From: Nereocystis luetkeana | Lineage: Eukaryota > Sar > Phaeophyceae > Laminariales > Laminariaceae | Length of the DNA: 64,000 bases | Direction: 5' to 3' | NCBI GenBank assembly: GCA_031213475.1 | Contig: JARUPZ010000025.1 | Coordinates: 8,640,592-8,704,591, forward strand | Part shown: positions 1,859 to 63,687 of the stretch, one piece after another | Position numbering within the stretch: the stretch's first letter is position 1 | How the letters are laid out: each line of letters opens with the position of its first letter | The notes under the pieces: generated by a model | The model's database searches: none | What the model saw: only the letters and a program-made list of their open reading frames with translations | What the model was told of the DNA's origin: nothing | Position numbers and translations under genes: made by a program

Positions 1859-4800
1859 GTGATTGGATGGAAGGACGGGGGCGCGGCGGAATGTCCGCTC
1901 GAAACGGAACATACCAAGGAATAGCCCTGCAATTAGTTTTTATTCCTGTTTCGGGCGCTTTACATCTATGGTATGCGTCGATTTCCTCTTGCTGGTCGTT
2001 GCGGTATGACTGTCGTTTTTTGGGCTGTTTTTGACTGAAATTTTGAACGCCTGGCAGAGGCGTTTCGTTTTTTCCGACTGCACAAGATATCCTCGGATTT
2101 ACCACATCCGAATGTCCGGGTGCCTTCGAAGGGAAACCTGTAACTTGTAGTTTTTTACAGGTCACACAAAACTACGGTAAAGTAAATTCGAAAAGCTTAT
2201 GCGCTGTTTTTCGCGCCCTATATATTCGTAAATGCTCTTGACAGGCCACACAAACTGTGGTATATATACTCTAGATGAATCGACGCCCTGTCTGGGATAC
2301 CTCCGCATTCGAACACTTACCACTACTTAGTACCACTGCTGGAGCATGACCAAACGCTCATACAATACAGACAACCTCATGGTACACAGCATTTCATGGC
2401 TAATGTAGATATTTTTTCATGTTGCTCTCAACCGTATGTATACCTGTATAGTAATAATTACTGCCGATTTGCTGCATATTGACAGTTGTATTAGAGTTCA
2501 ACTGCTGCTGCCACGAGTATATCACACGTGTGATAGGACAGCACACCCCCTCGGACAAATGCCACTGAGACTAGTAATACTGTCACTGAGACTAGTGATA
2601 CTGTCACGGAGACTAGTGCTACTGTCACTGAGACTAGTTATACTGTCACTGAGACTAGTGCTACTGTCACTGAGACTAGTGCTACTGTCACTGAGACTAG
2701 TGCTAGTGTCACTGAGACTAGTGTTACTGTCACTGAGACTAGTGATACTGTCACTGAGACTAGTGATACCGTCACGGAGACTAGTGATACTGTCACTGAG
2801 ACTAGTGATACTGTCACTGAGGCTAGTGATACTGTCACGGAGACTGTAGCTCGTTGTTCTGTACTACAGTGCCTGTCATATCTAATATGATGACATGGCT
2901 TTGCATTGCCCACTGCAGTGCATACTGCACACGTGGCAACGTAGTATCTCTGTGGCGTAGCTTTCTGTCCACATAACTTGTATCTCTTCTAGGATTGGAG
3001 AATCGGCACGGACACTGGTTGTGCTGGATGTCGACGGGTGGAAAGAACGGTTTAATGTGAAGAACACACACAGGTAGAGTACAAACGCTCGAGCGATGCG
3101 TCGATGGAAATATCTCGGAAATATCTCAACGATATCTTCCCAACGCTGCGCTTTTCCGTTGCGCGACTGACCCTCAACAGCAGCTTCGGAGAAACTCATC
3201 TATGGTCGTATGACAATTCAAACCAGGGTGTTTATATTGTATCTTGCGTGTTCCCACGCTGGACGGAACATGTAAGGGCCGTTTTTTGTGTTATAAGCAA
3301 TGCATTATATATTTCATACTGTTAGTGTGAGTAAGAGCCGGCAATACGTGCTATATGCTACCTGGTATGTGCTAGAGCTGCGAGTGGGCAGGATTTTACG
3401 ACTAATGACTACCGGTAAATCGGTAGGTGCCGCAGCCAACTAAACCGACCATAAGTCGTTGAGTCGGCTGGCAAAGCCAGCTGATGGGCAAATCGATTTT
3501 TGCCGACTTGAGTCGGGCGAGCACAGCGAACAAAATTACCCCCCCCCATCCAAAATCTAAAGTAAATGCACCCACTCTGACCGTAAATATAAGCAACATT
3601 GGAACTCTGATATTAATATCAAACGTAGATTATAATCCCGGTCAGAGTGGTACCCCGAATTAAACATCCCTTCGTACTATTAATATTATGAAAACCCGAT
3701 AAGTCGGGTTTGTCGGCACCTCCGGAAAACGACTATTCTCTTACTCTGACTATTAATATTAACTTATCTGTAGTTGGTAACTTTTAATCGTGCCGAATCA
3801 CGGCTCTGATAATTTCCGATCTGTTGGAGGACTATGCCTCATTTTGTTTGTTTTTTATCACGCGCCTTTTGTGTGCATGCTCTTGACAGGCCACACGAAC
3901 TGCGGTAAATCTACTCTGGTTAACGCCCTGTCTGGAATACACCCCCGCAGAGGTCCCGCCTCTATATCCGATCGCGCCGGCTGGACGGATCTTGTGGGCT
4001 TCTATCAAGTGGGGAAGAAACCGCCGGTGCTAACTCTGGCGAGTATTTTGTGTTGAATATCATGTCGAAATTGCTTATGCTGGATGTTATATATGGAAAT
4101 GTTGATATCACTGTTAATACTGTAGTATGATTCGATGTATCATATTCCTGGTTTATCGGTATTTTGCACTATTTTGTGTCGTAGTGTTGGTTATCATATC
4201 GAAATATTATGATGTATCGAAACACGTTGCTCGACGTGTGTGTGTTCTTCACATTACACCATTCTTTCTACCCGTCGACATCCAGCACAAACAGTGTCCG
4301 TGCCGATTCTTCAATAATATTAGTAGATAGATGCGAGTTCTGTGCTCGTGTGATATATATCGGTATGAGTGTCGCTATGTGGGGAATAAGCTGCCGGTGT
4401 CAGCTCTGGCGGGTACAGTAGTGTTGGATATCATATCGAAATACCATTATTTCGTACGTGGTATGGATATATCGGCATTCGATATGTTATACCAGGTATA
4501 TCGGTTTGCATTTGTGTCGTCAAGCGGGGTTGAAGCCACCGGCGCGAACCCTGGCGAGTACAGTACAGTGTTTGATAAAATATCTAAATATGCATAAAAC
4601 TATTCAATGTATGGGTATATATCGGTATTCGGGTCGTCAAGTGGGAAACAAGCCGCCGCTGCTATGTAAGTCTGGCGGGTAGTAGTGTTAGATGTTGTAT
4701 CAACATAATGATATTCATATTAATAGTATTATTTTGATATATGATATATCGGTATTCGTGTCGTCAAGTGGGAAAGAAGCCGCCGATGCTACTGTGAGCA

Positions 4801-8289: not shown

Positions 8290-8402
8290 TCACGGGGGGG
8301 CATAGTTAATAGGACCTGTGGTATACATAAAAACCTACTGGTATATATTTAACCATTTCTACCTACAATATTTGGTCCTATTGACTATGATCCCGCGTAG
8401 TA
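8288..8402. mobile_element. MITE-A
   Basis: Head-to-tail with the previous copy; carries an extra ctggta after ...aaaaccta. Confidence 0.75.
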
Positions 8403-8453
8403 GTACCTGGTACATGATACAAGTACCCATTCTGGTTTATGAGAAGTATAGCC

Positions 8454-9959: not shown

Positions 9960-10560
9960 TCCTCCTCTCAATAGATGCCCTGTGCCGTAGGGCATATACT
10001 CTGGGGGTACCCGTGAACTTACCCAACTATGACCAAAACAACCAGGTTTGGTACGCGGGTACCTTGTTAGTAGAATATACTCCCCGGGCTGTAAGTCACG
10101 AGTAGCTGTGTGCTGTTTTGAAAAGCTGTCCATCAGTTGGGATGTTTCCGAAGAGCTAGCAAGTAATACCGACCCTGGATCCTGAAAAAATAGTTATATT
10201 TATACCCTTCCACCTCCATCTAAGGGTCGTGTTAGATGATTCTCTGGGGGTACCCAGATATGACCAAAACAACCAAGTTGAGTACTCGGGTATCTTAGAC
10301 TAAACCAGTATACCCTTTCACCTCCATCGAGGGGTCGTGGTATACTCTGGGGGTACCTGAGTACCTGCCCGAGTATAACCAAAACCTACCAGGTGAAATG
10401 TACCCTAGACTATACCAGGTATATACCCGTTTACCTCCATCGGGGGATCGTGTTAGAGTATATAACATATACCCTACTAAAACAACCCTTCAAAAGGATT
10501 GCACCTCCATTGAGGGGACGTCTTCGAGGTACCAATGTCTAACATATCCTGCGAGGATTC
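9960..10560. repeat. ~120-bp tandem repeat
   Basis: Four units with cacctccatcgaggggtcgt and gggggtacc-gagtatgacc. Confidence 0.7.
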
Positions 10561-10689: not shown

Positions 10690-11270
10690 TTTTCGAGTGC
10701 TTACCTTTGAAACTATTTACACATACATCCTTGTACACCAGACAGACGTTGATGGAGAAAATCCATATGCGCCCCACCTGAACTCGCCCACATATCCTTT
10801 TACACCAACTGTGAATAGAGAAAATCTATGTCACACGCCCCGTCAATTTGTTTACATGTCACTTTACACCAACCTAAAATAATACCTGGTATGAAAATAC
10901 CAGAATCACTCCCCTGAAATCGTTCGCACGTCCTTTCACACTCTTTATCAATAGAGAAAGACCGCGTACGCAACTTTGAAACTATTTACACATGATTTTA
11001 CACCAACCGCTAACAGAGAAAAATCAAGGCCCCTTGCAGCATGGGCCCGCGAGCAAGAAGCACCATCCTGAACAGATCGGACACATAGATAATGATCTGT
11101 CCGATCTATCTCGTCTACTTGTAGATCATGTGGATCGCTAACAGAAAAAAATCAAGGTCCCTTGCAGTATGGACCCGCGAGCAAGAAGCACCATCTTGCA
11201 CAGATCGGACACATTGACAATGATCTGTCTGATCAATCTGATATATTTATTTGTAGATCATGTGGATCCT
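10690..11270. repeat. Two adjoining tandem repeats
   Basis: 10690-11020: ~65 bp units with ttacaccaac-gt-aatagaga. 11008-11270: a ~130 bp unit twice (atcaaggNcccttgcag ... gtagatcatgtggatc). Confidence 0.7.
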
Positions 11271-11828: not shown

Positions 11829-14800
11829 CTGGGGAATTTTTCAGGAGGTGGAGAAGGAGAGGGAGCGCGAGACTCATGTAGTCGCCTCGTCCTCCTGAAG
11901 TTCAAACTCTCCCTTGGCCTTCCCCCTCTGCAACTCCGTACCAGCCTCATCTTCCTTCTCGAACTCCATTGCGACCGGTGCCGAAGACAACTCAGGCACC
12001 GACCTGGGGAGAAGAGGGGGGGGCACGAGACTCACTTGGTCACCTCGGACTACTCGAGCTCAAACTCCCCCTCGGCCTCTCCACCCTGCAGCAACATATG
12101 TCGGCCTCATTTATCTTCAACTCCATGCTCAGAGGATCGAGGAGCGTAAGAAAACTCTGGCAGCGGACCCATGGCAGTACCTCGGCCTCCTCATCTCTCT
12201 TAACTCGAATCGTTTACCCCCTCCGTCTGCAGGTATTTTCCCACCGCCTCTCTCTGCCGCGCTGCAGCTCCGTGTCGACATCACCCCCCCTCTTTGGTTG
12301 GTGGGCCTATACTGCACAGAATCAGGGGGGCTGATTGAGTGCAGAGAACTGTGGCTGCGAACTCATGGCGGCGCCCCGGCCTCCGCTCTCGCAAACTCCC
12401 CCTCGCCCTCCGACTTCTGCAGCTCCGTCTTAGCCTCTTCCCTCGGCAACTCCACCCCAACAGAGTTCGGAGACAGCTCAGGCACTGGGCTGAGGAGAAG
12501 GGGAGGAGGAGGAGGAGGAGGAGGGGGAAGAGGGGGTGGGGGGGGGGGGGGGGGGGGAAAGAAAAGGAGGGGGAGAAGAAGAGGAGGGGGCGCGTGTCAG
12601 GCCCCGGTCGTGCCGTAGGTTGCCCCTTCCAGCCAACACAAAACCCGTAGCCTACTGTAGTACCATAGCACACCTTCAACAAGAACAGAAGACCAGTAGG
12701 CTACTGTAGTGCAGTAGCCTATCCCCTCCAACCAGCATCTCCCTTACCGTTGGAGTAGGTTATCCCTCCGACTGAACGCAAGAGCGAGTAGGCTGTTTCT
12801 GTGGTATCCCTTCAATAAAACACAAAAACAGCAAGCTACTGTAGTACAGTAGCCTATCCCCCCTCATCAGTACCCTCTCCATCGTAGGAGTAGGCCGCCC
12901 CTTCGACTCAACACCAAAGGGGGTACCTGGTAGGCTGTTACTGTGGTACCCCTTCAACAATAACAAAAAGACAAAAGGCTACTACAGTACAGTAGCCTAT
13001 TCCCTCTAACCAGCACCCTCCCTATCGTTCGAGTAGGTCATCCCTTCGACTCAACACAAAAGCGAGTAGGCTGTTGCTGTGGTACCCTCTTCAACGAAAA
13101 CTCACAACCAGTAGGCTACTGTGGTACAGTAGCCTGTCCCCTTTAAGCAGCCTATCCCCTCTATCCAGCGCCTTCCCTACCGTTGGAGTAGTCTATCCCT
13201 TCGACTCAGCACAAAAGCGAGTACGCCGTTTCTGTGGTACCCTCTTCGACGAAAATACCCAACCAGTAGGCTACTGTCGTAGGCTATTGTAGTAGGCTAC
13301 TGCAGCACTGTACGGCAGGTCATCCCCTCTAACCAACACCCCTCCGTACCGTGGGAGGAGCTGCTCCTGCCCTTTGAGCCAAAGGCCCATGCTCTTCATC
13401 CACTTGCGCTTGTCGTACGCCTCTTTGGTGGTGAGGCAGTGGGCCACAACGGTCTCGTCCGAGATTGGAGTCTTGTCGCAATCCCTCGTATACCTGAGGT
13501 GCAGGTTTTGAGGACATAATGAGGCAGACGGGCCGCCGGTGGGGGGGGGGTTAAAAATGCCCTTATCGTACCGTAGTGCCCTGTATCCCCTCATGGTGGC
13601 TATACTGGCAATATAGCTACGAAAGTCTGCCCCCTGAGTAAGAGGAGTTAAGAATATCCTACACGTAGTACCCCCCTATTCCCTCACGGAGGCATTACAC
13701 TGCCAATGACGTCATTATACCTTCGCATATTAAGGCGTTTTCTGCCCTTATATGGAGGCTTTGCTGCGTTAATAACATTCGAACAGGCGTGCTTGGAGTC
13801 GCTGAGGGATTTTCCCGTTGTGCGGAAGCAGAGACTTTTGGAGAGTCCCAGGCAGCGTCCTCGATCGATCAGAAACCCTGAACCATTCGTACGGCCTCGA
13901 GCTTGCTGACAAGTAAGTCGCCGACTAGTTCCCATAGTTGGCTAGGAACTAACAGTTTGTCGTGCGCATGTATTTTTACGGCGCTCTGCGTCTCGTCTTC
14001 TTGCCTGGTGCGCTTGCGGCTTGTCGTGAGTTGACACAAGGATAGATACTACCAATCTGCCCCTAACCCTAAGCAACATTTTTTGCTCAATACAAATGTG
14101 AAAAATGTGCTTATACGATTCAGGGGCAGATTGGCAAGTCAATTTGTTGGCGTACTTGGCCAGGCAGCCAACAGCTTTGCAGGTAGTGTAGAGAGCGTTG
14201 AGCGCACAAGGGGTGCAGCCATTTTGTCGGCGCTCGAGGTTTCCAGAACGGGGGTGGAGGTCCAGATTGCTGCCAATACTGAGCAACAACCCAACAAGGT
14301 GTTTTCGGAAACAATATCTGATCGAGGGGAGCCTTCCGAATGTTCGACTTCATAACCCTCGTTATCGTTGTTAACCCTTTTTTTGTTGCGGGGGACCATA
14401 GTTAATAGGACCTAATAGTGCTAGTAAAAAATGGTTAAATAAATAGGTTTTTATGTGTATCATAGGTCCTACCTGGTATTAACTACGATCCCTCGTAATA
14501 GGACCGCCGTCCCGTTTTGGGGACAAACCACTCTAATTCTGAATAGTTTGTTCCCAAGACGGGACTGCGGTACTAAAAAAACGATGGCACCCCTGTGCGA
14601 ACTCAACACTGTTAACCCTAGTAACCCTAGTTGGCACTCATACCTCGTATATATATACAGTACTCAGGACTTACGATGGGCCCAGAAATCAGGTACCACT
14701 GTGATCTGAAATATAAGGAACGTTTAAACTTAAAAATAGTACAAAAAGGTCCTTATATTTACGGCCGCAGGGGTACCCCCCTCTGTTCAAAATTTGCACA

Positions 14801-17800: not shown

Positions 17801-20712
17801 CGCCGTGAGGTGTTGGGCAAGTCACATGAAGGGTGAGCTGCATCCTATTAAGAACCGCCTGTGGGGCGGTCTAGCGCTTGGATGACGGCTTCCGTGAGTT
17901 GACTCATTTTCCGGTGTGGCCACTTCCAGAGACAGCAATGGGAGTACCATGTTACCATGAACAATACGCAAGGCTCTCCACCCCGCACGAATGATCTTAA
18001 AAACTCGATCGCCGGCTGCGACCGACCGCCGAACAATAAAAAAACGACACCCTGGTTATCTACAGTAGCTCAGGTAGCGAGCGGCATGTTTTACAGCGTC
18101 GTTGCCCACCGACAGATACAAGGTACGTACATATTGTAGGAGAAGGCCGAAAGGAGGACGTGATTGGGAGGATGAATGCAGAATTTGATGTCCGAGCTAC
18201 GATGGTTGAAAGCAAGGAGTCGTGCGGCACGGGGACAGCCATGGTTGATAATACCGGTTTCACCAACCCTTGTTCTGCTCGATCAACCGTCTTCGGGCAA
18301 GCAGCCTGTAATATCATATTGGGCCCGTGCCGTACGGTTCATCAGAGTGGGCTAATGTTATGGTACCGCTTTTAAATGAGGCTGAAAGGCCGGTAATTAC
18401 CTGGGTTCGGGTATTGGAATCGCATTTGTGGTATATACTCGGGAGGCGTATCTCAGGTATATTGCCAGCGAGGCACGAGCCTCGCTCTCAGTCTCCATCG
18501 TGCACGAAAGGAAACAAAGCTGCCCTTCTTCTTCCTCTAAGCGAACATCACACGTGAGTCCCAACGAGCACCTACCTCCTCAATAGGCAAACCTAACAAG
18601 GGATACAAAGTGGCCCGACCTTGAACTCAACAGCAACCCGCAGACCAACTCGTACCATCCCCCAGTCATGCAATCGCCGTTTCTGTATTCGTCCGTCACT
18701 TTTATTCGTCAGTTTTTCTCCTCTGAAGTCTCAAAAGGGTTAACGCCTTCAATTACAGTACCTGGTATATATTACGGGGGGCCATAGTAAATAGGACCAA
18801 ATATTGTTAGTAAAAAAAGCGAAACATATACCGGGTAGGTTTTTGTGCGTACCGTAGGTCCTATTTAATATGGCCCCCCGTAATAGCATGAATTAATGTT
18901 TTGTCGTTGCAACTTGTAGGTTTTGAGAACGTGGTCAAAGGGGGGCGGGGCTTTCGTGTGCTCGGAGTAGGAAAGTAGTTAATTTAACTCTAAGATACAT
19001 CAAGTGTAAAATAGGTAATTGTTTGGTGGTGTCGTCGCAAAAAAACAACAAAAAAACGCTTTTGCGCAGTCTAAAACATCTTGCAAACGACGTTTTTACT
19101 CTATGTGTACGACAGCAGCGCTCGTGGTTTTACTCTAGTGTTGTCGGAGACCACGTATGACAACAATAATCATAGTCATATCAATAGGCGCAGTTGTTTG
19201 GGTCGAAGATTAGATGATAGAGACGAGCGTGTATCGTCAGTGTATACAAAGGCCGTTTATCTACCCATACCTGCTTTTCGTACCCGGTACGTTTTCATCG
19301 CGAAACCCGTGCTACGATAGAGATACATAGTAGAGCTGTTCACGAGTCGTGTCAAACCTCGCGGGTCAGGTCGTGTCGGGTCAGGTCGGGTACGGGAGAC
19401 CCGACCCGACCCGACCCGACCCAACTCGTGATGATTTGACAAGTCCTAACCCGACCCGCGGGTGTCGTTGGGGTCATGACCCGTGCAATGATACGATAGG
19501 GGAAAGCGCGTTTTTGCCTTTTAGGGGCAGCACCTAACTTTTCTGAGGCCTTATAGGGGTAGCTCCTCGCGTCAGAGCTCTACACCCTCACCCAAACACA
19601 TTTTTTTTTGTAAAATGCCGAAAAATGCAATCCGATCACCAAACCCCAGAGCCTACTAACTGGTGTTCCAACGATACTGGGTGTAACCCTTCTAGGTAAA
19701 ACTGCAGTTCCGTTTTAGGGATAAACCAGTCAAAATCTAAGTAGTTTGTCTCCGAAACGGGACTGCAGTCTTAAAAGGGTCAAGGAGACCCCCCCCCTCG
19801 TCAGTCAGAAATATTGCCTCATAAGGCAAAAAAGTGCTACATATCTATCGTAGCACGCGTCGAATTGCTTTTAATAGCGCCTTGAGACCCCTCCTCAATT
19901 GAGGAGCTCGGGGGAAAAAACGGTTTTGAGAATAAAATATATAAAAGCTAAGAAGGCCGACATACAATCAAAACCCCCATGGGTTTAAGGTATCTCACGA
20001 ACGAATGTTGAAGACATACACCCGGTGTATCTATCGGATTTCGGCGATACTACTGCACAGGCACAATAGCCCCTCAGCTGCCGTGGTCAGCGACGAAGCG
20101 TTCGGCCTGAAATGTGCAACCCCTCATTGAAACCCCTGATTGAAACACCACATGAAAACCCCTAAATTGCAACCCCTTATTTGCAACCCCTACCCCCCTA
20201 ACTGAAATCCCAAATAGCAATCCTTACCGCAAAACGGGACCGCGAGTTTTTTTCTATACACCTGGCTACATCGAACGCCATCGCCAACTCAAATGGGGCT
20301 GTGAAGGTATTACCTGCTGAGCTATAGGGGTATAAGATCGATCGATTACCCAGCCCAGAGGGTATTCCTTATAACGCCCCCCCCCCCCCCCTCAGAACGC
20401 CGGGATATTTTGGGGGCGTCGGTACCGTATACGGCCGTACGCTGGCCTACCCGCTTCGTTTCAATACCTGCCTGTCTGTGGGGAACTAGGGAGGTATACG
20501 TGTTCAGGGACGTAAGGGCAAAAGCGCTTCTACAAAAAGAAACGTTCGAAGTGAGATTCGAACCCGTGTCCTGCCATCGACGCCACATGTGCAGGCGTTA
20601 CCTACTGAGCTAGATAGGGGTAAAGGGTCGATCGAGTACTCAGCCCAGAGGGTAATCCTTATAAGAGTATCGGGTAGAAACACAGCACGTACACCCTGGG
20701 TGTGCTGGAGAT

Positions 20713-31971: not shown

Positions 31972-32155
31972 GGTGGTGTAACGGTTACCCTCGAATACTG
32001 CTATTAAGGGGGGCCATAGTAAATAGGACCTACGGCACACCCAAAAACCAATATATTTACATATTTTTACTTACTGGTATAATATTTGGTTCTGTTTGCT
32101 ATGGTCCTACGTAATATTAACAGAGTTGATTCCGTGAGTTCGAATTCTACCACCG
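31972..32155 (+). tRNA. tRNA-like gene split by a MITE
   Basis: 5' part ggtggtgtaacggttaccc (31972-32001) and 3' part with gagttcgaattctaccaccg flank MITE-A 32002-32116. cggtggt and accaccg can pair. T stem has a mismatch, so it may already have been a pseudogene. Confidence 0.4.
32002..32116. mobile_element. MITE-A inside a tRNA-like sequence
   Basis: Both ends present; separates the two halves of the tRNA-like sequence 31972-32155. Confidence 0.78.
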
Positions 32156-34093: not shown

Positions 34094-34155
34094 CCACGGG
34101 GGACCATAATAAATAGGACCTACGGTAAACACAAAAACCTACTGGTATGTTTATA
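34094..34155. mobile_element. MITE-A, left half
   Basis: Left half only, with extra ctggta; another half copy follows at 34194. Confidence 0.65.
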
Positions 34156-34243: not shown

Positions 34244-34919
34244 TACGAAGTGATGGCTAATAAGTCATGCCCATTAGCGCCGAGTGCTACGCTAAATCCT
34301 GGTATAAAATAGGCTGCGCTCAAGGTTATTCAAGGATGGTTTCGCAATAGCTCGGTCAGATAACATAAGAGCTGGTGTTTCTTGTTGTCATACTTGTGTA
34401 CCACGTGTGTTGTTGTATTGTTGTCCGTTGTGGGCGATGTTCGCAGCAGCAAGCAGCAGTCAATATCCTACATACCCGCGGGCACAATTACTCACATATC
34501 CACATGTATATGTAGGAAACCCGGGCATGTCCCCTGACTACGCCACGGGTTGGACGGTAGTTCTCATCCAACCAAAAAAGTGATATTTTCGTCGATTATC
34601 ATGTACCAGGTACCAGGTAAAAGATACGGTGCGAGCATGCGGATATACGTGCAGTATGTATTGTTGATGTGCTCCCGATATATTCCACGGACTACGTCGC
34701 GGAGGAGACGCACGCAAGTCTACCCTCTCATCCACTCTCTCATCCACCCCCCGTCCCCACCCACGCTCCCTTGCTGACTGGTCTACTCTCTTACAGACGT
34801 GTTCCGTCTTCACCTGCTTTCCAAAACACACGCATCCTTGCCACAACCCCTTGCAGCCCCTGCCGACACTCTGTTCGTGGCCTACTCTGTGGTTTAATAC
34901 AAAGGGGTACTTGACAACG

Positions 34920-38127: not shown

Positions 38128-38179
38128 GCAACTCCGGGATTCCACCGTCCTTCCCCTTCCACCTCCTCCCGGGTATTCT

Positions 38180-43600: not shown

Positions 43601-44853
43601 GCTCCCACTCGGCAACATGATCTAGATCGTACAGATCGTACAGATCATACAGATCAGGGATCTAACTGCCCCGAAAGATATAGATTAACAGGTAGGAATG
43701 ATCTGTAGATGATCTATCCGATCTGTGCGACGTGTGCTACTATCCACGGCGCGAGTGTCTCTCAGCAAGAAACTGCCCTATCTTGCGTGACTTGTCCTAT
43801 CCTGTCCTGTTCTGTGATCGTGATGATGATGATGTTCTCATACGAAGCTCATTTCCCTGATGAAGAAAAAAAAAATACCCCCGTTGTCGCAAAAACAGGC
43901 GAAAAAAAAAAAAAAAGCCTTGGAAGAAAATAAACTACTGCTGTAGCGTATACCGGTGTAAAATAATCCGGTAGGTACACCACCAGAACTATTACGGGGT
44001 ACCATAGTAAATAGGGCCCACGTTACACACAAAAACCTACCTGGTATGTATTAAACTATTTTTAGTAAAAATAATTGGTCCTATTTACTATGGTCCACCG
44101 TAATAGAAAGGGGCCGGCACGAACGGGCTGTGGTATACCATCTTGATAGCAGGAACACTTCTATGGCATGTTGTTGTTCTTGCTGTGGTAATTATCAACG
44201 TCATCGCGTCAATAGCTACTGTTATTCTTGTTGCTGTTTTCACATTAATCCAACGCTTTCTTTATAACCTAGCGAACGACAGGCTCCAAAACACTAGCCA
44301 GGTACCAGGTATGAGGTACGAATGGAGTGGAAGAACACCTCAGCAACGCAATAAAAAAAGCAAAACAAAAATACAAACGCACGAAGCGGTACGACACATG
44401 CACACTGCAACGACGGTAAGCACGTCGAACACCCCAGGCCAAAACACAAGTGAAATCAGCGTATTGTATCCTGTAGTGCATCCGCCGCAGGTGAAGCAGT
44501 TGTTAGCGTGCGTGTGCCGTGTGGCACGTGCCATACCTCTAGAGAGAAGCCTGCTAGCCAAACCGCCAACCCGATGGCCTCCCGTCCGCCTAGACTCCCA
44601 AGATCGCCTGTAGAGGATGGAGTGTTGCCGTTACAGTAGAGTCAGTAGGGGTAGGGGGTAGGGGGAGGGTGGTTGGGGGTGGTGTTAGTGTTGGTGTTGG
44701 TGGGATGGCGTGTTGTCGTTACAGTAGAGTCAGTAGGGTGGGGGAGGGTTGGGGGTGGCGGTGGCGGCGGCGGCGGCGGTAGCAGTGGTAGCCGTGGTAA
44801 ATGAGGTGGACGTAGTTGAGGTAGTAATTGAGGTGGAAGAAGTGGTGGGGAAG

Positions 44854-45034: not shown

Positions 45035-46363
45035 TAAAGAGCAGTCGAAGTAGCATCAGCAGTAGCACTAGTAGTGGCATCACAAAATGACGCAACTCTT
45101 ACCAACAGTTCCAAGCACAACAGACTTGATCTCGAAACGTGGTTGCAGGCTCTACACATATTTCCAAGTAGTCTCCAAGGACGAGGGTGTCGTTTCTAAA
45201 AGGGTTGCTCGGGAAAGCATTCCCCGTTCGATATTCCTATCATCCGTAGACTTGCATGTCGGCACGACTCGTCACCAACTAGTTACATATGTTGGACTAC
45301 TCTGTTACTTCGTCGATTCTCGGAGGTGCCGACTATTCGAGTTCTTGGGTTTTCATACATGTAGGGGGGATAATTGAATACGGGATGTGTTTTCCCTTTA
45401 TTGGCTGGGGCCGCCTCGGCCGGAGAGGGCTCATGTTTGGCTGACTCAAGTCGGCAAGTCGGCTGTCCATCAGCTGGCTTCGTTAGCCGACTTTCCAACC
45501 AGAGTCGATTTAGGTGGCTAACGAAACCTCTTTGAAAGTGATCAGGACCCCTATTACGCACAAAAAACTACCAGGTACAATTTACAGTATTTTTACAATT
45601 TACGGGGGACCATAGTGAAGAGGACCAAATATTGTTGGTAAAAATAGGGAAAATATAGGTTTTTGTGTTCACCGTTGGTCCTATTTACTATGGCCCCCCG
45701 TAAAATAAGGATATTTGGTGCTGGTCCCCGGTATTAATCGTGAAATCCTGCAGACTCGGACATCCATCCATCAACTCTGCCGAAACTCCATTTTACGCAT
45801 GTGGACATGAAATTTTAAACACGGTGTCTTTGTCCATTCAACATTCGAAACACGTTCCGTTCTGACTTTGTATCTTTCTTCTTCTTTTCCTGTCCCGAGA
45901 ACTATGACCGGTTTAACGATCCGAAGCAAAAAAACAAAACAGCCACGATATCCCTCCCGAAAAACATCTTCAGTACTTCAGAAGGGGCTATGACCTATAC
46001 GTCTCTCTCACCTCTAGGATCCACCATGTGGAGGGCTAGCATGGGCAGAGGGGTGAAAAACACCCACATCCCCTGGTTTCCACATAAAAGGGCGAGTCGA
46101 TACATGGATAGAATGGGTGGAAGGAGATGGCGAGGGAGAAGGAAGGGAGGAGAGGGGAGGGGGGGGAGGGGATAGGAGGGCGGGGCGAACCTTACGCGAG
46201 GGAGAACACGTTGCCTTACTCCAACCAGTCTTCTACTCCAAATGTAAGCATGCATGTCAGGACCGGAGGAGGGAGAGGGAAGGAGGAGAGCGAGTCTTGT
46301 TCGCGACAGAAAGCTACTACTACTACTACTAATTGTAGTAAATCACTACTACTACTACTGCAG

Positions 46364-46741: not shown

Positions 46742-49700
46742 TTACTACTACTGCTACTGCTACTGCTACCACTACTACCGCCGCTATCCGTACACCTCCA
46801 TTAGTATCTAGCCCTGCTCAAGTATCTAAGGTAAAGCTACCTGGACGGTCCAGAAGAGGAGGAACTTGAGTGGTCTATCCCTGACGTGGTTGAACCTGGA
46901 ATCATGTCTTTGCCGTCGGATCCTTTGGAACAGAAACGTTCCGAGCCTGGTCGAGCAGAATGGGATGTATCAGACAGATCGGACACGTTAGACAGATCAG
47001 GCAGGTTAGATAGATCAGACAGATCAGGCGTATCAGATACCCTGGTATACAATATCTATCAGATACACCAGACAAATCAGACACACCAGACAGATCAGAT
47101 ATATCACACATATCAGATAGATCACACAGACCACACAGATGAGACATATCAGATAGACGAGACATATCAGAGAGATTACATAGATTAGACATATCAGACC
47201 GGCCAGACAGATCAGATAGATCAGACAGATAAGACATGTCAGGCCCCCATTTCATCACCTAGATCTTCCAGGGGCAGACATAAACTCCGCTTTGCGAGCA
47301 GGAAAGCATCAGGGCTGTTCACGGATCGGGTCATGCCTCGCGGGTCAGGCCGGGTCGGGTCGGGTACGGGTAATCCGACCCGACCCGTTAGAGTTTGAAA
47401 ACCTCCTGACTCGACCCGACCCGTCCTGACCCGTGAGATTCCAAAACCTTCCTGACCCGACCCGCGTATCGGGTCATAATCCGTCAAGAGCTCTAGAAAA
47501 AATAGCAAACAAGAACATACAGACTATATCCGCATGCTATTTTTTAGAAAACGCAAGCCTCGGGAGTAGGGGAAATAAACTAACACATCGGGCACACCAG
47601 ATCGTTATTTCATGATCTAGCTTTTCCAGGGAAAACGTAGGATCTGTAGATGATCTACTACACTAGAAATCGTGATTTTTCGAAACAGAGACCTTCCGAG
47701 CCTGATGAAGGAGCGCGGGACAGAGCGGGGGGAAAAATACACGTGTAAAAAACAATTTAACAACTACCTACATTTTCGAAGTTAGTCGTTTCGTAGTGAA
47801 CGAAAAACTAATTATTTATTTTCCGAATTCGGGCAGACGAAATGAAACATATCAAACAGATCAAGATCCCCCCCCCGCTCCACCGCTACCACCATCACCT
47901 TTCCTCCCCACCCTCGCCACCAACATACCAGGTAACTACCAACACCACCACCAACCCCTTCCCCCCCCTCCCCTTTTTCTATAGGTTGGGGTTGGCGTCG
48001 GTTGGCAAAGACACTGTAAAACATGCCGCTCACTACGTGAGCTAGACAACCAGGGTACCGTTTTTGTTTTGTTTTATTTTTTGGCGGTCGCCCACAGCTG
48101 GTTGTCGAGTTACTGTAGATCGTGTGTGCGAGGTAAAGAACCTTTACTCCGCACATGGGAATGATCGTATCACGTAGCGTTCAAGGTGAGGCACCCAAGA
48201 GGCGGATACATAGTACTCCCATTGCTGTCTCTGGAAGTGCCTACACCGGAAATCAAATCAACTCATTGAAGCTGTCATCCATATGCAAGTCCGCCTCACA
48301 AGCGGTTCTTAGTAGGATGCAGCTCACCCTTCATGCGACTCGCCGGACTCTTCACGGCGCTGCGCGCTTGGTGCAAGCAATGTCTGCCTGGTCCGTGAAA
48401 ACCCGACATGCTCCGTCTCGGCATTGTAGGGATGCGAGGGTCAATGGTCATACGACTACGGCCATGCATGAGATCGAGTGCATCCCTCCTAGCGAGTACA
48501 CCCCGCCCCCCCCGCCCCTTCCCTCTATCCCGGCAATGCAGAGATGCGAAGGTCTATGGTCATGACATGAGTACCCCACCCCCGCCCCCCCCTCTCCGCC
48601 CCACCACCTACCTCGTAGTCCAGATCAAGACCAACGTGGTGGCGATGAGTTGCCTGGGAGCGGTGATGACGAGGGACCGAACATCAAGCAGCCCCTCCCC
48701 GAAAAAACGCTTCAGTGAGCCCATCTGGCTGAAGACCGCCACGGACATGAAGGCAAGCATCCCTAGAGAAAAATCCAGGAAAGGGGTACGTGGAGAATGA
48801 CAAAAGGTCGGGGAGGGATGTGTGGGAGGGGGGGACTCATTTGTTGCTTGCCTCAGTCTTCGCCACGCGTCCCTTTCGAGATGGAGCACCGTTCCTACTC
48901 CCATTGATAATAGAGACACCTCCAACATTTGGGCGCTCATGACGATTTTTCCATACATTCAGCATTCTACGCTTAAAACAAAAATGCTCGATCTTATCGT
49001 ATTAATGTTAGTAGTACATAAAACACGTTTTGTTGTAAAACATCTTTCGAATTGCGTTGTCGATTTTCATCTCCTGTGGCTTGGAAGGGTATGCAGCTGG
49101 CTGACATGTCTACCGCATCATCAACCTTGATGTCATACCCACATGTCTTCGCTCATAAACGCACCTCCCTCCCTTCACTGTCCGGGGATGACCGAGAAAC
49201 CCTATGGTCCAACACCATTGCACTCCCCCAAGAAAATCATACACCATGGTAAAAACCTCCGCATTTTTTTTATTTTATTTTTCAATCATCACTTTCACTT
49301 TCCTGCCTTACTCGTAGGAGGTTTTACCCTCAACGAGCTTCTGGACAAGCCGTGGTCACAGGTGTCTACCCTTCTCCCCCCCGGTACGTGCCTTTTATTT
49401 TTTGTCGCGCATAGGGTTCAGCATTCCCACTGCTCGTCGATTTTCATCGAATGTAGCTAACTCACGCTCTCGCGCTTTCCGCTAATCAATTTCTTTTTTG
49501 CAAGAAAAAGCCACGAGCATGCACTCCTCGGTGAGACTTGAACCCACGAAATTGACCTTGATAGGCACGCGGGCCACCCACCAAGCCACCGGGGACGCCG
49601 AAAAATGAAAAAAAATGTAAGTAGATACTTCGTATTCGCATACACTCGGCTATACCATATCAACCGAGAGATTACCTATTTACACCCTCGTAAACATCTA

Positions 49701-52700: not shown

Positions 52701-54010
52701 AGCGAACACTATTACGGGGGACCATAGTTAATAGGACCTATGGTATACATAAAACCTATATATCTAACCATTTTTACTAACAATATTTGGTCCTATTAAC
52801 TATGGTCCCCCGTAATAAAATACTGACGTCAATATTTCGATTACCTGGTTTACCGAAATTGCCATCATTCGATAAAGAACATCGAAAGTTCAGCCTTTTT
52901 GGGGGGGGGAATATCGGAACTTTTGATGTAATCTATCGAACACTATTACGGTGGACCATAGTAAATAGGACCAAATATTGTTAGTAAAAATAGCGAAATG
53001 TATAGGTTTTTGTGTATACCGTAGGTCCTATTTAATATCGTCCCCCGTAATACTATTGATACAGTATTACAAGCAGTGGGTACCATGACTTTGAACCCTT
53101 TCATGGATAGTACTGCGGTCCCGTTTCGGGGACAAACAACTACCTAGAATTTGAGTGGTGTGTCTCCTCTACGGGACTGCAGTCCTATCAATAGAAGGGA
53201 TAAGAGAGGCCTGGTACGGCACAAGCCGAACACGCCTCTCTAAAAAACGCGCTATCTTGTCCACAGTGTGAGACACAGCACCCCTCTGTAAGGAGCGTTC
53301 GTTGATAGGTTGATCTTAAGACGAAGCGGTCCTTACATTCCCGCCTGGGATGGTACGTGGTCTTTCCTAAACTGTACAATTGTCCTACTATTACGGGGGG
53401 GCATAGTAAATAGGACCAAATATTGTTAGTAAAAATAGCGATATATGCAGGTTTTTGTGTGTACCGTAGGTCCTATTTACTATGGCCCCCCTTAATACTG
53501 TTGGGTGCCCCTCTCTTCAAGTCGGGGTATCAACTGCTGCTACACTATCTCAACTCGGGGTACCCACTGCTCTGCCTACCGGTGGTGTCTTCTTGCCTGG
53601 CGAAAGTTGCGGCCGCGTCGACGCCAAGAGAGTGGGGAGAGTGGGGAAGAAAGCTCGAAATCAAAAGTTTGGTGTGTCTCATGTCTCATGTATCGACATC
53701 GCGATATTTTGATTACGTACATCGACAGCTCGGCACTTTTTCGAAATATCGGAACTTTCGATTCGTTACTAAAAACGCTACCATCAATATTAATATGGAA
53801 AATACATTAATGCTGAACTAATGCTGTCTTCCTTGCCTGGATGCCCATAGCGAGGGTGGCGGCCGCGTCAACGCCGAGAGAGTGGGCCACGCCCAGAGCA
53901 CAGGCCCAGCAGAAAAACACGCTCGCCAGGTCTTTAGAAAAGTCGTCCCCCCTCGGGTCGTCGCTCCGTCTGCGCGGCGGCTGAGGATTGAACACAGGAA
54001 GGACATACAA
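40575..54010 (-). CDS. DUF1295 / steroid 5-alpha-reductase-like membrane protein
   Basis: Ten exons: 54010-53837, 50553-50496, 48762-48612, 46946-46841, 46072-46012, 44607-44537, 42410-42297, 41448-41362, 41202-41123 (uncertain), 40677-40575. All phases match; about 334 residues. The protein is hydrophobic with several membrane spans and follows family PF06966 (DUF1295) in order: WIPSALAQSEKFYDFTG, RQLIATTLVLIWTTRLG, HDSRFNHVR, FWTVQGMWVF, AVWLAGFSLE, VTADNQKRDFKADPENAGKFID, GLWSRCRHPNYIGE, then LEHGADKKYG and a Tyr/Lys C-terminal stretch. Members are predicted NAD(P)H-dependent reductases of ER or plastid membranes related to steroid 5-alpha reductase and isoprenylcysteine methyltransferase; the substrate is unknown. 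Exon 1 uses a GC donor. A start exon at 58656-58633 is an alternative 5' end. Confidence 0.87.
41123..41202 (-). CDS. DUF1295 gene, candidate exon 9
   Basis: Acceptor ttccccacag; LFMFFIG resembles the family's LLLFVSG strand and phases fit both neighbours if the donor is gtgatc at 41122. It adds about 18 hydrophilic residues the family lacks, so the true link may be a microexon I did not find. Confidence 0.35.
41362..41448 (-). CDS. DUF1295 gene, exon 8
   Basis: Acceptor aattcag, donor gtgagc, 29 codons in phase 0. Membrane span VIWSGFFVFCSRG and a second hydrophobic stretch ending AGPAFV, as the family requires after NYIGE. Confidence 0.87.
41859..41967. mobile_element. MITE-A
   Basis: Intact, in the DUF1295 intron 7. 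Confidence 0.82.
42297..42410 (-). CDS. DUF1295 gene, exon 7 (core motif)
   Basis: Acceptor tttatgcag, donor gtgagc, 38 codons. VTADNQKRDFKADP, GKFIDVGLW and CRHPNYIGE: the most conserved block of DUF1295, thought to bind the nucleotide cofactor by analogy with related reductases. Confidence 0.92.
42512..42604. mobile_element. MITE-B
   Basis: In the DUF1295 intron 6, ~100 bp from exon 7. Confidence 0.78.
43990..44105. mobile_element. MITE-A with 7-bp insertion
   Basis: cctggta inserted after aaaaaccta (44040-44046). Confidence 0.78.
44537..44607 (-). CDS. DUF1295 gene, exon 6
   Basis: Acceptor cctctacag, donor gtatgg. Encodes a Gly-rich turn and IGLAVWLAGFSLE, the helix before the conserved VTAD motif. 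Confidence 0.87.
44855..45035. repeat. (gta)n microsatellite
   Basis: About 170 bp of gta with few interruptions (cagtagcagt). Confidence 0.95.
45599..45705. mobile_element. MITE-A
   Basis: In the DUF1295 intron 5; a short extra fragment lies just upstream at 45552. Confidence 0.76.
46012..46072 (-). CDS. DUF1295 gene, exon 5
   Basis: Acceptor ggaaaccag, donor gtgaga. GMWVFFTPLPMLALHMVDPR, a membrane span and luminal turn. Phase 1 end. Confidence 0.85.
46315..46780. repeat. (cta)n microsatellite
   Basis: About 460 bp, in the DUF1295 intron 4. Long Leu, Tyr or Val frames here are artefacts. Confidence 0.95.
46841..46946 (-). CDS. DUF1295 gene, exon 4
   Basis: Acceptor ctcgaccag, donor gtagct. 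LGTFLFQRIRRQRHDSRFNH then a span ending FWTVQ. A gt...ag 15-mer inside (46895-46881) is in frame and encodes conserved RFNHV, so it is read as exon. Confidence 0.88.
47950..48505 (+). repeat. Repeat D, long copy
   Basis: Full family block in the DUF1295 intron 3; a partial extra end at 48520-48570. Confidence 0.7.
48612..48762 (-). CDS. DUF1295 gene, exon 3
   Basis: Acceptor ttttctctag, donor gtaggt. Two membrane spans, MLAFMSVAVFSQMG and RQLIATTLVLIWTTR, joined by a basic loop. Confidence 0.88.
49255..49605 (-). mobile_element. tRNA-derived SINE, full length
   Basis: Starts (49604) with a tRNA-like head: box A-like tggcttggtgg, box B gggttcaagtc, five-pair T stem. About 230 bp of body, then an A/T-rich tail near 49266-49281. 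Related to the copies at 56.6-56.9 kb and 51.2 kb. Confidence 0.65.
49974..50206. mobile_element. TIR element F, ~233 bp
   Basis: Ends tacgatagaggtt and aacctctatcgta. It interrupts a sequence that is continuous in its relative at 33.64-33.65 kb, which marks a clean insertion. Confidence 0.7.
50496..50553 (-). CDS. DUF1295 gene, exon 2
   Basis: Acceptor ctggacag, donor gtaaga. VVAWIPSALAQSEKFYDFT is the signature N-terminal motif of the family; ends in phase 1. Confidence 0.88.
51187..51469. mobile_element. MITE-A interrupted by a SINE
   Basis: Left 14 bp at 51187-51200, remainder at 51370-51469. Confidence 0.7.
51201..51369 (+). mobile_element. 5'-truncated SINE inserted in a MITE
   Basis: Body of the 49.3 kb SINE in opposite orientation, without tRNA head, ending in an A-rich tail (gaaaaaaagaaaaaa), inside MITE-A 51187-51469. 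Confidence 0.65.
51939..52034. mobile_element. MITE-B
   Basis: Diverged copy. Confidence 0.7.
52710..52817. mobile_element. MITE-A
   Basis: First of two copies in a duplicated block (TTAATAGGACC subfamily). Confidence 0.82.
52944..53052. mobile_element. MITE-A
   Basis: Second copy in the block, but of the TAAATAGGACC subfamily. Confidence 0.82.
53093..53206. mobile_element. MITE-B
   Basis: Diverged; right arm carries extra atagaa. Confidence 0.68.
53389..53497. mobile_element. MITE-A
   Basis: Intact left end; right end ccccccttaata. Confidence 0.78.
53586..53635 (-). pseudogene. Partial copy of DUF1295 exon 1 end with GC donor
   Basis: The stretch cactctcttggcgtcgacgc and the downstream ccaggcaagaagac match exon 1 end and its GC donor (53870-53826). 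Lies in the following intron. Confidence 0.6.
53837..54010 (-). CDS. DUF1295 gene, exon 1
   Basis: Met at 54010 is in frame; alternatively an acceptor (caatcctcag) at 53981 would join an upstream exon. Encodes an Arg/Asp-rich lead, then a membrane span (DLASVFFCWACALGVAHSLG). GC donor gcaagg at 53836, phase 0. Confidence 0.72.
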
Positions 54011-54322: not shown

Positions 54323-54428
54323 TATTACGGGGGACCATAGTAAAGGTAAACACAAAAATCTATATACTCACCTACTTTTTATAAAAATATTTGGTTCTAT
54401 TTACTACCAGGTATGGTCCCCCGTAATA
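54323..54428. mobile_element. MITE-A with 7-bp insertion
   Basis: ccaggta inserted after ttacta (54407-54413); a short internal deletion follows accatagtaaa. Confidence 0.76.
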
Positions 54429-54680: not shown

Positions 54681-55402
54681 CAGTTGCCTTGACCTGAACC
54701 TACGACTCACCCGTAATTACGCGGTTTCGGCTTTCCTATGTACTTCAGCGGTAATTAGCTCAAAAGCCGGGGATTATTCGGGCCATCCCCGGGGTAAGAA
54801 ATGAAGGCGTTACGATTCGCATGTGATGCGCCAAAACAAACGCAACGACGTTTTCCTGGGACGTGCTGCTGCTGTGCTCTACTATCATGGGTCTCTCTTG
54901 TGAGTGCTTCCCATTACAGTAGTTCATTTTTACGGCGTTTTGGCTGGGTTTCGATTTGATATTGTTTTTTTAGGGGGACCGGGGGCGCCAAAAAATAACC
55001 TAGTTTAAGAATTACTAACCTCTTACTTCAGCTACCGGTCAGTTACCGGTAATTACCTGTTACCGGTAACTGCCATCCCTGGTTTTATGTGAAGGCAATA
55101 CAATATACCCTGGTACGATATACCTGGTATGTGAATAGCCTGGTCATCCTCTTACGTATTATTTTATACCTGGTACACAAGAAGACACACAGGACGAATT
55201 CAGAGCCGAGTCGGCTCAAAACAAGCGCACGGGGCAAACGGACACACACACAAGACAACACAAGAATCGTCTCTCGCTGCAAAGATATTGTTGAGATCTT
55301 TCTGTGTGTGTGCTCTTCCTTCACATTAAACCGTTATTTCTATCTATCGACGCACAACCATTGCCCGCGCCGATTCTTCAACCCTACTATTAACACCGGG
55401 TA

Positions 55403-56930: not shown

Positions 56931-57550
56931 CTTACGAGTGCATCTTACTTGGTCCTTTTTTATGTACCAGGTATGTACTATGGTGCGGTTTGTTGTGGTG
57001 TGTGGATGTCGACGGATAGAAAGAACGATTTCATGCCAAAAACAGCATATGCATGAACTAAATACACACGCACGACGAAAGAAAATCGTCTACGTAGTCG
57101 AGATATTTCCATAGACTGCACCGCGCACCGCTCGGCGTTCTCACTCTCCCTACTAGCCTGAGCCTGATGTCTCGAAAATCAGCTACCAGGTACCACTTTG
57201 GCCGTAAATATAAGTACCGTTGAGACACTAACATGAACACCAAGCGGACCTTACAGTCACACCCAGATTGGTATGTATAAATTATCACATTCGTCCGAAG
57301 GGGTGTGTTACTACTGCTGTAGTAAAAGTTGTCCTATTGTTTTGGGTCTTTCGACCAGGTTCGTCTATACCTGGTACCAGCTTGGGTACACCATGCACAG
57401 TGCAAGACAACACGCCCCCACATCCTGGGATGCATTTTCCGAGCTGATTTTTCTCCAATACAAGCAGGGCAGGCAGGCAGGCAGGCTCTTGATGTAAATA
57501 TCTCGGACTGCTATAAATTGAACTGACAGCTGACGTACTCTTCTAGCTTT

Positions 57551-57648
57551 TTAACCCCTTTAGAACCGCAGTCCCGTTTTGGGGACAAACCACTCAAATA
57601 TCAAGTAGTGTGTCCCCAAAACGGGACAGCGGTTCTAAAAGGGTTAAC
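57551..57648. mobile_element. MITE-B
   Basis: Near-consensus copy. Confidence 0.82.
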
Positions 57649-58091
57649 AAAAAAGCGTAGAGATCATCCCACACCAAACGCATTGCTCCGCGCTTGCGCT
57701 CTCCCACGTTGTACATATCATACAACTATTACCTATTAATAGTAAAGAACATGAGCTTGGAGATTCGTCCAGCAGTATATATACCCCGATGGAAATACTG
57801 CGCGTCGGGGGGATGTACAACTTGCCGGCAAAGATGTCAGGAGACGGTCTGTCAAGGGAAAACGTGCATCGGTCAAGGGTGTAGATCCTATTAACAGTGT
57901 TCCAAACTGAAACCTAGTAGTGTGACGTCCGTCAAGATATACAAGCGGGAAAACACCGTCCGTCAAGGGGTTAAAGTGCCGTCTCCTGACATATTTGCTT
58001 GCTGGAGTGTCATCTTAGGTGAGTAGGTTTAGTAGGTACATGCAGCAAAAGTTCTCGGGCACACGTGCACCTGTACTGTTTGTTGCACAGC

Positions 58092-58436: not shown

Positions 58437-58632
58437 CTCGAGCCACGAGCCACGAGCCACGAGTGCATACAATGCGTCGGCGCTGTTGGATATACACGCG
58501 GAAGGATGGAAGGTGCTGTGGTCTACGATATCATAGACCTTGGTACTATTAATAGGTTAATAGTACGTAATAAATTAAAATGAAAAAACTGCTGAACAAA
58601 TAATTAGCTACCAGGGTAGTTGCAAAGCAAAC

Positions 58633-59027: not shown

Positions 59028-59684
59028 GTGAAGATGTCCCACCTCGTTGTCAAATAGATCATTTTTTGTTTTTGCAGCTGTTTTCTTCAGCTTGCCTCAC
59101 CAATGCAACCATCCACCAGAGATTGCTGTTTCTTCAAGCCCTGGAGCTAACCACAGCAGTACTAGCAGATGCAGGCACCACTCTTACTTAGCGCAGCGAA
59201 CAAGAAAGCAACGCAGGTTGGCTCGTTGTATGTGTGTGTGGGAAGCAAGCAAGCGCACGCTGGGTTCGCTGAGGGCAGACCGGGGTGACTTTTTTGCTCT
59301 GACTTGCGTTGACGCCCCACGCCTGCACTGAAACTCATATGATTTGATACCAGGTACTCCTGATGCCTGGTACAGCCCGATCATCACCTCTTGTCTCTTC
59401 GCGAATCACCTCATGCAACTACAATACGAGTAGTACTACAATACCAGGTACAATAGAATACACCAGCAGATACTGCTGTCGTATTGAAACTGCTGCCGCA
59501 CCTACTGCTGTAGCCAACTATTAATAATAACTACGAGCTTGAATCCATCCAGCTCACCTCCCTACTTCTTGGGGAGCAATGCCAGGTACGGCAGTACGAG
59601 AACAGATATTACTACGAGTATTAATAGTATCATGTTCCGTCCTGATCCTGGTTGCGCTCAGTGCTGCCTTCATTTGGGTAGAGG

Positions 59685-61639: not shown

Positions 61640-63687
61640 CACGCTGACTCGCGCCGAGCAGCAGCAGAAGTGACAGCAGCCAGGCCAGCGTTGCCGATGT
61701 TGTGGTGTTGGGTCGTGTCGTATGTCGTGTGTTGCTGTGTGAGTGTGTGATACTCGTACGAGTATGCGGCGGGACTTTCTAACATTTCCGATGCATGAAT
61801 CCGACTGGAGAGTTGGATCGAAAATCTCATTTTTTGTTCTCTGTCTGGTCCAGTCACAATCGAAAAATCTTGGGTTCAAAAGGCGCTTTTTCAACTGCAT
61901 AAGAATGCCAGTTTTTGTCTCCGATCGGAAACCGGCTTTTTCAATCCTACTGTAGTTTCAGACTGCATAAGCAGTGGCCTTACGTATAAATGCTTGATTT
62001 TCGCGCGCACTCGATGCTCGGTATTCGGTATTAACTGTACCAGGTACCAGATATCATACCTGATACTCGGTACTCAACAATCGATTACACTCAACACTCG
62101 AGGTACTCGGATACTCGATGCACCTAGGTCTACTCGAGTAGAAAAAGAGTAAAAGCATACCGGTATGATACGTGAGATTAGGCAATACCAGGTACATACA
62201 GATTAGTACCAGGTAATACGAGTATATAAGTAGGTATTTTTTATTAAATAGCCTTAGTAGAGAGAACCAAGATAATATCAGGACAATTGATACACGAGCG
62301 TTTTGCGGTTTGAGACTTGAGAGCTTGAGAAGGGAAACAGGACGAAGCTATTTGTAGTTAACAAATTACGATGGCAGCAAGGACGGCCTCGGCCATCGGC
62401 AGCATGCAAAATGCCGGGTTTCTAGGGTATAGGGGCGTTCGAACGCCATTGGATTGGAGATGTACGACACGAGGCCTGATTGCACGCCGAGTGGGCAATT
62501 ACCAGCACATACAACAGCAGTATCAATAGTGGTGTACCCTTTTAACATTTAACCCATTTAGTAATGCAGTCCCGCATTGGGGACATACCATTCAAATTAT
62601 AAGTGGTTTGTCCCCAAAACGGGACTGCAATCCTAAAACCCCGTGACAGACGTGTGTGTTGTTCTTCACAGCAGTGAACAGTTCTTTCTACCCGTCGACA
62701 TCCAGCACACCCAGCAGTGTCCGTGCTGTTTCTTCAATCATAGAGAGGTACGAGTATACACCAGCTCTCTGTGGTCATACACAGAGATACTACATTGTTA
62801 AGCAGTAGTCACGGTAGACAATGCAAGTTACTGCATTCGTGGCAACGTAGTGTATCTGAGGCGTAGCTTTTTGACCACATAACTTGTATCTCTTCTATAC
62901 GATTGAAGAATCGGCACGGACACTGGTTGTGCTGGATGTCGACGGGTAGAAAGAACGGTTTAATGTGAAGAACACACACATGCAACGCCATGCCATGTAC
63001 TGGATGCGAGAGGCACGGCATTCACATTCTATGAAAAAAAACCAAAAAAAAATGTCGTGCCCTCCAGAAGCAGGAGGTGTGGCAGACAGTAAAAAAACAG
63101 GCAAGAGAAGCAATACCACCACATATGTACAGAGTAGGGCTAAGAACCTGAGGAAAGAGCACTGGGCAAAACCGAAGCACGAGACAACAAAAGCATCCTT
63201 CAGGCAGCCGAAGCAGGTTTTGGTACGAGCAGCGTAGACAGGTTTTACTCTTGCACCTTGACTACTGAAAAAACGATTCCTTGCTAGCTCTCTCGTGACA
63301 TAAGCCAATTCACCTGAGCTTATCTCTATCAATGTTGTTGTTGTTGTTGTTTTTGTTTTTTGTTTTATCCTCCGGCGGATTGGCAAAAATAACGCTTAAG
63401 GTCACCACACTTCCACGTTCCCGTGTCGTGTGTCAGTTTAGCCTATATATAGCTCCCGTTGCAGCATATCAGCACAGGCTGCTGTTACTGCTGGCGCCTG
63501 GGCACGTTGACCCGACCTGACTGACCCCCGAGAGGAGCAGGTGCGATGGAGATAGCCACACGGGAGGAGAGTCATATCTCCCGGGTAGTGTGGGACTTGC
63601 GCGAGCTCACCCACCAACAAAAACCGAGGCTATAAGGCCTTCCCGCCGGACTTGGTCCAGTTACGGTCCACCCTACCCGTTGCTCCG

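Follow-up and report, generated by a model that had tools for sequence, protein, structure and literature searches.

A nine-base word, TACCWGGTA (W, A or T), recurs throughout a 64,000-nucleotide stretch of the Nereocystis luetkeana genome (positions 8640592-8704591 of contig C25, here called the window; the assembly comprises 465 Mb in 1987 contigs). Alignments of filled and empty repeat copies demonstrate that the word arises by insertion of CCWGG together with a duplicated TA, and it is very probably the excision footprint of a family of cut-and-paste DNA transposons that inserts at TA. An initial annotation of the window had claimed at least 26 copies where about 0.5 would be expected by chance. 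This over-representation was borne out, with 30 copies in the window against a mean of 0.61 and a maximum of 3 among 100 dinucleotide shuffles, and the genome-wide count against a control that the annotation had proposed was likewise positive (182,395 copies in 465 Mb, or about one per 2.5 kb, versus 1,744 for the reversed word). The 27 coordinates it gave were exact in 26 cases; the site placed at 47936 should read 47926, and three sites (4490, 12924, and 59348) had been overlooked.

The 200 kb of DNA upstream of the window served as a replicate, and the combined 264 kb contain 123 perfect copies. The word is a palindrome centered on W, found with this center 123 times in the 264 kb, while words with S (C or G) at the center numbered four in the window and seven in the 200 kb. 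Within the window's 35.8 kb of masked DNA, only a C homopolymer was more over-represented among 9-mers than TACCAGGTA (20 versus 0.41 expected) and CTATTAATA (14 versus 0.09), and one-base neighbors of TACCWGGTA, changes at the center excluded, numbered 26 in the window versus 14 expected. Neither TACCAGGTA, TACCTGGTA, nor TACCWGGTA was found as a whole word in the open-licence literature of PubMed Central (PMC).

Insertion at TA in repeat copies

The filled and empty pairs come from two families of miniature inverted-repeat transposable elements (MITEs), MITE-A and MITE-B, and from one tandem repeat. Among 29 MITE-A copies in the window, 25 were kept as full copies (at least 96 aligned bases, 85% identity), two diverged and two partial copies being dropped. 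The full copies carry seven insertions of at least 6 bp. In six of them, two TAs enclose CCAGG, CCTGG, CCCGG, or CTGG; the remaining one, at the end of a copy, is an artefact of poly-pyrimidine sequence. Five of the six footprint insertions are clean duplications of a TA present in the empty copies, and at the sixth, a 6-bp insertion forming TA-CTGG-TA at 32072..32079, the site is surrounded by substitutions. Insertions of 7 bp lie at 14470..14478, 44038..44046, 54405..54413, and 18829..18837, the last containing CCGGG and being the sole insertion among the window's four S-centered words; another 6-bp TA-CTGG-TA insertion lies at 8336..8343. The three MITE-A insertions cited by the initial annotation (54405, 14470, and 18829) are therefore real by alignment, and further ones were found. 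Rather than tracing to one ancestral site per family, which the annotation had named as the observation that would speak against repeated insertion, the MITE-A footprints fall at four consensus sites and differ in content. One of these sites, CC|TATATATTT, was struck four times, in three full copies and a partial one (CTGG, CCCGG, CCTGG, and CTGG), and a partial copy carries TA-CTGG-TA at 34140..34147. Insertions of 3-4 bp of other kinds are also present in MITE-A copies.

Across the 264 kb, 74 full MITE-A copies contain 19 insertions of at least 6 bp, comprising 11 of the CCWGG family (including one 8-bp CCCTGG and one 13-bp tandem), one TTAA, and seven of other kinds, two of which are likewise flanked by TA. 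TA-flanked MITE-A insertions with other cores (e.g., TGAA and TTTCGAAG) in the 200-kb stretch hint at further footprint families. Six insertions of at least 6 bp were detected in 51 full MITE-B copies, one of the TACCAGG type and five internal duplications. Outside the MITEs, a tandem repeat at 12.9 kb provides an independent pair, with a filled site at 12924..12932 and an adjacent empty unit, clean in one of the four alignments shown. Duplication of TA on insertion, as the initial annotation had proposed, is thus shown by filled and empty pairs in MITE-A, MITE-B, and the tandem repeat.

Target preference, variants, and a second footprint class

Counted outward from the footprint TA, the window flanks have a pyrimidine at +1 in 49/60 cases, W at +3 in 46/60, and a further TA at +6/+7 in 22/60 (background 8.3%), and the target consensus is palindromic (TA-NNWNR-TA-YNWNN-TA). 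The TA 5 nt out was found in 16/52 window flanks when MITE-A sites and the tandem junction were left aside (P = 3e-6) and in 60/186 flanks of the 200-kb replicate (P = 3e-22), while a control, CWGGTA without TA or TAC at its left, was at background (5/64). The outer TAs at 14470 are part of the target and not of the insert, because they are already present in empty MITE-A copies.

Length variants in the 264 kb comprised TACCGGTA (29 versus 4.8 expected), TACCAGTA (28 versus 8.4), and TACAGGTA (10 versus 11.9). The CCAGGG-type word TACCAGGGTA occurs four times in the window (0.25 expected) and eight times in the 200 kb, and the CCTGGG-type word TACCTGGGTA zero times (0.25 expected) and twice, respectively. 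This asymmetry matches joined CCAG...CTGG fragments and is not accounted for by CCTG...CAGG fragments. The long variants of the window lie at 33368..33377, 47038..47047, and 55106..55115 (TA-CCCTGG-TA) and at 58609..58618 (TA-CCAGGG-TA). The CCAGGG variant bears the target signature in both the window (5/8) and the 200 kb (7/16), and in the CCGG variant this signature is weak (4/14 and 8/44). Together, the CCGG, CCAG, and CCAGGG variants suggest terminal repeats that start with CCAG.

One-base mutants of the footprint in the 264 kb are enriched for transitions (58 versus 16.7 expected) over transversions (39 versus 35.4); from an excess of 45, 123 perfect copies, and eight positions, mean decay works out at about 4.6% per site. 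Because decay is biased toward transitions, the scars look inherited and aged rather than like fresh somatic products.

A second footprint class is present in the same DNA. The word TATTAATA occurs 16 times in the window versus 0.48 expected (e.g., at 3611, 24789, 33502, and 58547) and is flanked by GTA in 10/32 cases in the window and 19/126 in the 200 kb (background 3%-4%). Over the 264 kb, its 158 flanks and the 141 flanks of resident MITE-A have the same commonest base at seven of eight positions, and the MITE-A flank profile scores TATTAATA flanks at +0.61 bits, compared with -1.47 for the 246 CCWGG flanks and -0.95 for background. In addition to this shared target preference, one TTAA event was seen as a 6-bp insertion inside a MITE-A copy. 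With TAC/GTA flanks, TATTAATA is read as the excision scar of MITE-A (e.g., TA-TTAA-TA at 33502..33509), whose residents (TA-TTACGGGGG...CCCCCGTAA-TA, such as that at 52710..52817 on the + strand) would be the source; 76 MITE-A copies of at least 90 bp lie in the 264 kb. Pairing of 3-nt TTA overhangs across 2 bp would yield such a scar. Based on the shared flanks and the TTAA insertion, this genome retains excision footprints, and their flanks distinguish families. The word TACAGTA is also enriched in the window (43 versus 12.6) with neither flank signature there, and its GTA flank is raised in the 200 kb (12/98, P = 7e-5).

Proposed excision mechanism, source element, and rival explanations

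Insertion of a transposon at TA would duplicate the TA, and a staggered cut at excision would leave the flanking DNA with 3' overhangs made up of a few bases from each terminus, here read as 5'-CCAG(G).... Identical overhangs would anneal C:G and G:C around a single A:A mismatch, repair of which in either direction would yield TA-CCWGG-TA, with imperfect joins giving CCGG, CCAG/CTGG, and CCAGGG/CCCTGG. The core length and its variants suggest an overhang of 4-5 nt, the cut itself being unobservable in sequence. From these patterns, we infer a transposase, an overhang of about 4-5 nt, the terminal sequence, and prolonged germline activity of a low-copy element. The footprint of a TA-targeting transposon was the first of three options in the initial annotation and is supported by the TA duplication, the W-centered palindrome, the length variants, the target preference, and the second class with a resident source. 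Another option, a repair signature, would in its pure form leave the target preference unexplained.

Several observations weigh against excision by such a transposon. The 264 kb, which contain 123 footprints, yielded no element whose ends read TA-CCAG...CTGG-TA. The window was searched for TA-flanked inverted repeats starting with CCWGG or with any bases, and the 264 kb for CCWG-starting pairs within 10 kb and exact 10-mer pairs within 6 kb; k-mers after TACCAG likewise revealed no source element. A TA-flanked transposon with CCAGG/CCTGG ends, for which the initial annotation had suggested looking, was thus not found in the 264 kb. An apparent 9-kb element in the 200-kb stretch (73178-82197) that shares CCAGGGTATAC ends was rejected, with no Pfam domain in the six open reading frames (ORFs) scanned, and so was a second CCAGGG end pair, on contig C2, its terminal similarity being limited to the shared word. 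The word TACCAGGGTATAC occurs 648 times genome-wide versus 7 for its control, which by our own estimate approximates the expectation for a CCAGGG footprint followed by TAC.

No transposase was detected by a Pfam scan of the longest 150 of the window's 280 filtered stop-to-stop ORFs (at least 89 amino acids). The Tc1-type domain DDE_3 was undetected genome-wide among 30 candidates scored, in a kind of search in which introns split genes. The pogo-type domain DDE_1 had 28 genome matches (best 3.4e-28), but a pogo-type enzyme is a candidate only, because the two loci examined (L092 and L093) showed no convincing terminal repeats and no link to CCAG ends in the stretches covered. Five DDE_1 matches (on C809, C872, C1099, C1378, and at C2:7920664) have equal scores and three TAG stops each and are probably copies of a decayed multi-copy pogo-type element. 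Searches of IMG/VR with tandem footprints matched five and seven stretches, with no sites besides the matched pair in the five, and a search with MITE-A and MITE-B words returned nothing; 33 GTDB contig matches to a 17-base MITE-A word are read as chance.

The remaining difficulties concern flanks, centers, and overhang length. The CCAG variant bears the target signature in the window (5/14) and lacks it in the 200 kb (5/42, P = 0.22). S-centered words have no target signature (0/8 in the window, 0/14 in the 200 kb), although decay of W would be expected to place some true footprints among them; most of them are therefore probably other sequence rather than footprints, even though 18829 is an insertion. 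Two control words in the window, TTWAA (5/14) and TACCGTA (7/30), also have a TA 5 nt out; both are located by sequence in the MITE-A interior, and TTWAA was rejected as a footprint class. The same W is shared in 11 of 12 tandem footprint pairs in the 264 kb and in five of eight pairs among 100 genome places listed, so slippage copies may account for some tandem units; the shared W hints at slippage or a directional step. Finally, published Tc1/mariner overhangs, in the portion of PMC3878927 that treats them, measure 2-3 nt and are shorter than the overhang proposed here.

One rival explanation overlaps with ours: the footprints would form from an overhang of the usual 3 nt or 2 nt, through gap filling or addition of an A, the cut being nothing new. 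We consider it a serious possibility, somewhat short of probable. The TTAA of MITE-A would fit a 3-nt TTA overhang, and the excess of TACCGGTA fits a simple fill-in of CC ends; however, CCA overhangs pair only via an A:A mismatch, yet CCWGG dominates, and the CCAG and CCAGGG variants require at least four terminal bases.

Direct insertion of the 7 bp by a minimal mobile palindrome or a template-free process, with no transposon ever at the site, would accommodate the absence of a source element in the 264 kb and the highly uniform product (123 perfect copies). We nevertheless judge it improbable, as the length variants CCGG, CCAG, and CCAGGG resemble end-joining products, a resident source exists for the second footprint class of this DNA, and a palindromic target preference would be that of a dimeric integrase; the mobile palindrome offered by the initial annotation is not needed. 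Programmed elimination, in which elements sit in the germline genome and are excised from the sequenced somatic genome, would account for scars without residents, and developmental removal of MITEs has reportedly been published for the ciliate Blepharisma. However, the scars decay by transitions like inherited DNA, and 88 MITE-A and 76 MITE-B loci are still in place across the 264 kb, which makes this account very improbable. A functional motif maintained by selection, such as a binding site, an origin, a splice signal, or a CCWGG-methylation signal, is hardly credible: the word is strongly palindromic and CCWGG is the Dcm/EcoRII site, but the filled and empty pairs, in which copies arise within repeats by insertion with TA duplication, contradict such a motif, and one-base mutants are in excess.

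Excision by a cut-and-paste transposon is thus the explanation we retain. In its strongest form, which we advance tentatively and would not call probable, the source would be a ghost transposon known only by its scars, with a 4-5-nt stagger and a TA-N5-TA-N5-TA target, moving far more than multiplying and leaving some 182,000 scars. The ratio of scars to residents would then be at least about 40:1 (123 versus 0 in the 264 kb by the rule of three, for residents with alike ends and no longer than 10 kb). To our knowledge, excision footprints are usually noticed locus by locus. Here, apart from the homopolymer, no word signal in the window's non-repetitive DNA is stronger than that of the two footprint classes, and given this strength, excision events can be counted and dated, and flanking preference alone assigns them to families. 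A mobile element not found in the examined DNA can therefore be studied via its scars, and transposon ends, target site, and repair outcomes can be inferred without the element in hand. The results suggest that cut-and-paste movement can reshape a genome, here by 7-bp inserts totaling about 1.3 Mb (182,395 x 7), while leaving few or no copies.

Window sites and comparison with known footprints

Beyond the footprints within MITE-A copies, word counts placed TA-CCTGG-TA at 3359..3367, 8404..8412, 10883..10891, 12924..12932 (the tandem-repeat site), 18759..18767 (adjoining a MITE-A copy), 26017..26025, 33459..33467, 34079..34087, 55121..55129, 55167..55175, and 57368..57376. TA-CCAGG-TA was found at 4490..4498, 10413..10421, 27515..27523, 42193..42201, 44303..44311, 45569..45577, 47926..47934, 56965..56973, 57184..57192, 59348..59356, 59442..59450, 62038..62046, 62186..62194, and 62207..62215, and a tandem pair at 34604..34612 and 34611..34619. 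No footprint or variant is assigned to a strand.

The window has few long coding frames. Ten Pfam families matched its ORFs at E of 0.01 or less, with only DUF1295 (3e-15) and a P-loop GTPase (1e-5) convincing, and an Rfam scan at the gathering threshold gave no match. The DUF1295 domain is present as a short exon-like piece, located by the domain scan about 70 bp from the footprint at 42193; this and the scarcity of long frames are the grounds on which the DNA is read as eukaryotic. Among homologues of the DUF1295 and GTPase exons, the sole name is a Joint Genome Institute (JGI) label, an EcfA2-type ATP-binding protein. Similar fragments at 2200-2330 and 3845-3970, 1.6 kb apart, are perhaps duplicated exons or pseudogenes, the second lying within an ORF with P-loop GTPase homologues. 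MITE-B has 17 palindromic copies in the window bounded by TTAACCCTTTTAGAACCGCAGTCCC (e.g., 8524-8632, 38024-38133, and 57545-57653), and we take it to be a piggyBac-like candidate by its TTAA ends. A 72-bp inverted repeat at 32187-32258 has perfect arms of at least 20 bp (TAGCTCAGTGGT), which in our view resemble a tRNA D-arm, perhaps from an inverted tRNA fragment. A further repeat family of about 260-550 bp, 86%-96% alike and in two orientations, occurs at 371-621, 16239-16592, 35135-35488, and 48157-48510; a scan of four ORFs gave no Pfam domain.

Among known systems, MITE-A (terminal inverted repeat TTACGGGGG, target-site duplication TA) resembles the CCWGG source in the palindromic scars between TAs that we attribute to it (TATTAATA), and differs in its ends, its target preference, and its many residents. 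For Sleeping Beauty, a staggered cut is described as leaving 3-nt 3' overhangs, with end joining making the footprint (in the relevant part of PMC7827188), and Table 1 of PMC3878927 lists the footprints of Sleeping Beauty and Frog Prince as C(A/T)GTA. As far as these accounts extend, TA-C(A/T)G-TA is alike in its TA duplication, W-centered palindrome, and 3'-overhang end joining (PMC3878927, PMC7827188), and in both cases W would derive from a single mismatch. Unlike that of Sleeping Beauty, the CCWGG scar has a 5-bp core, one base longer on each side, and target TAs at plus and minus 7; and unlike those of Sleeping Beauty and Frog Prince, CCWGG scars are deduced without an element in hand, from about 182,000 genomic copies.

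Stowaway MITEs in Triticeae, as portrayed in sections of PMC1925063, leave terminal fragments of 1-4 bp and are alike in having TA-flanked terminal-repeat fragments at empty sites, variants, and reinsertion beside a footprint; the work on Stowaway, however, dealt with a known element in single genes, whereas the CCWGG element is deduced from genome-wide scars. Passer, a pogo element with footprints of 0-4 bp in the data given by part of PMC9976928, may share a lineage with an enzyme of this genome, as DDE_1 occurs here, but CCAG ends were tied to no DDE_1 copy at the two of 28 loci examined. Without claiming a named family, we conclude that the CCWGG scar is of the same kind as known excision footprints but has a longer core and follows another target rule.

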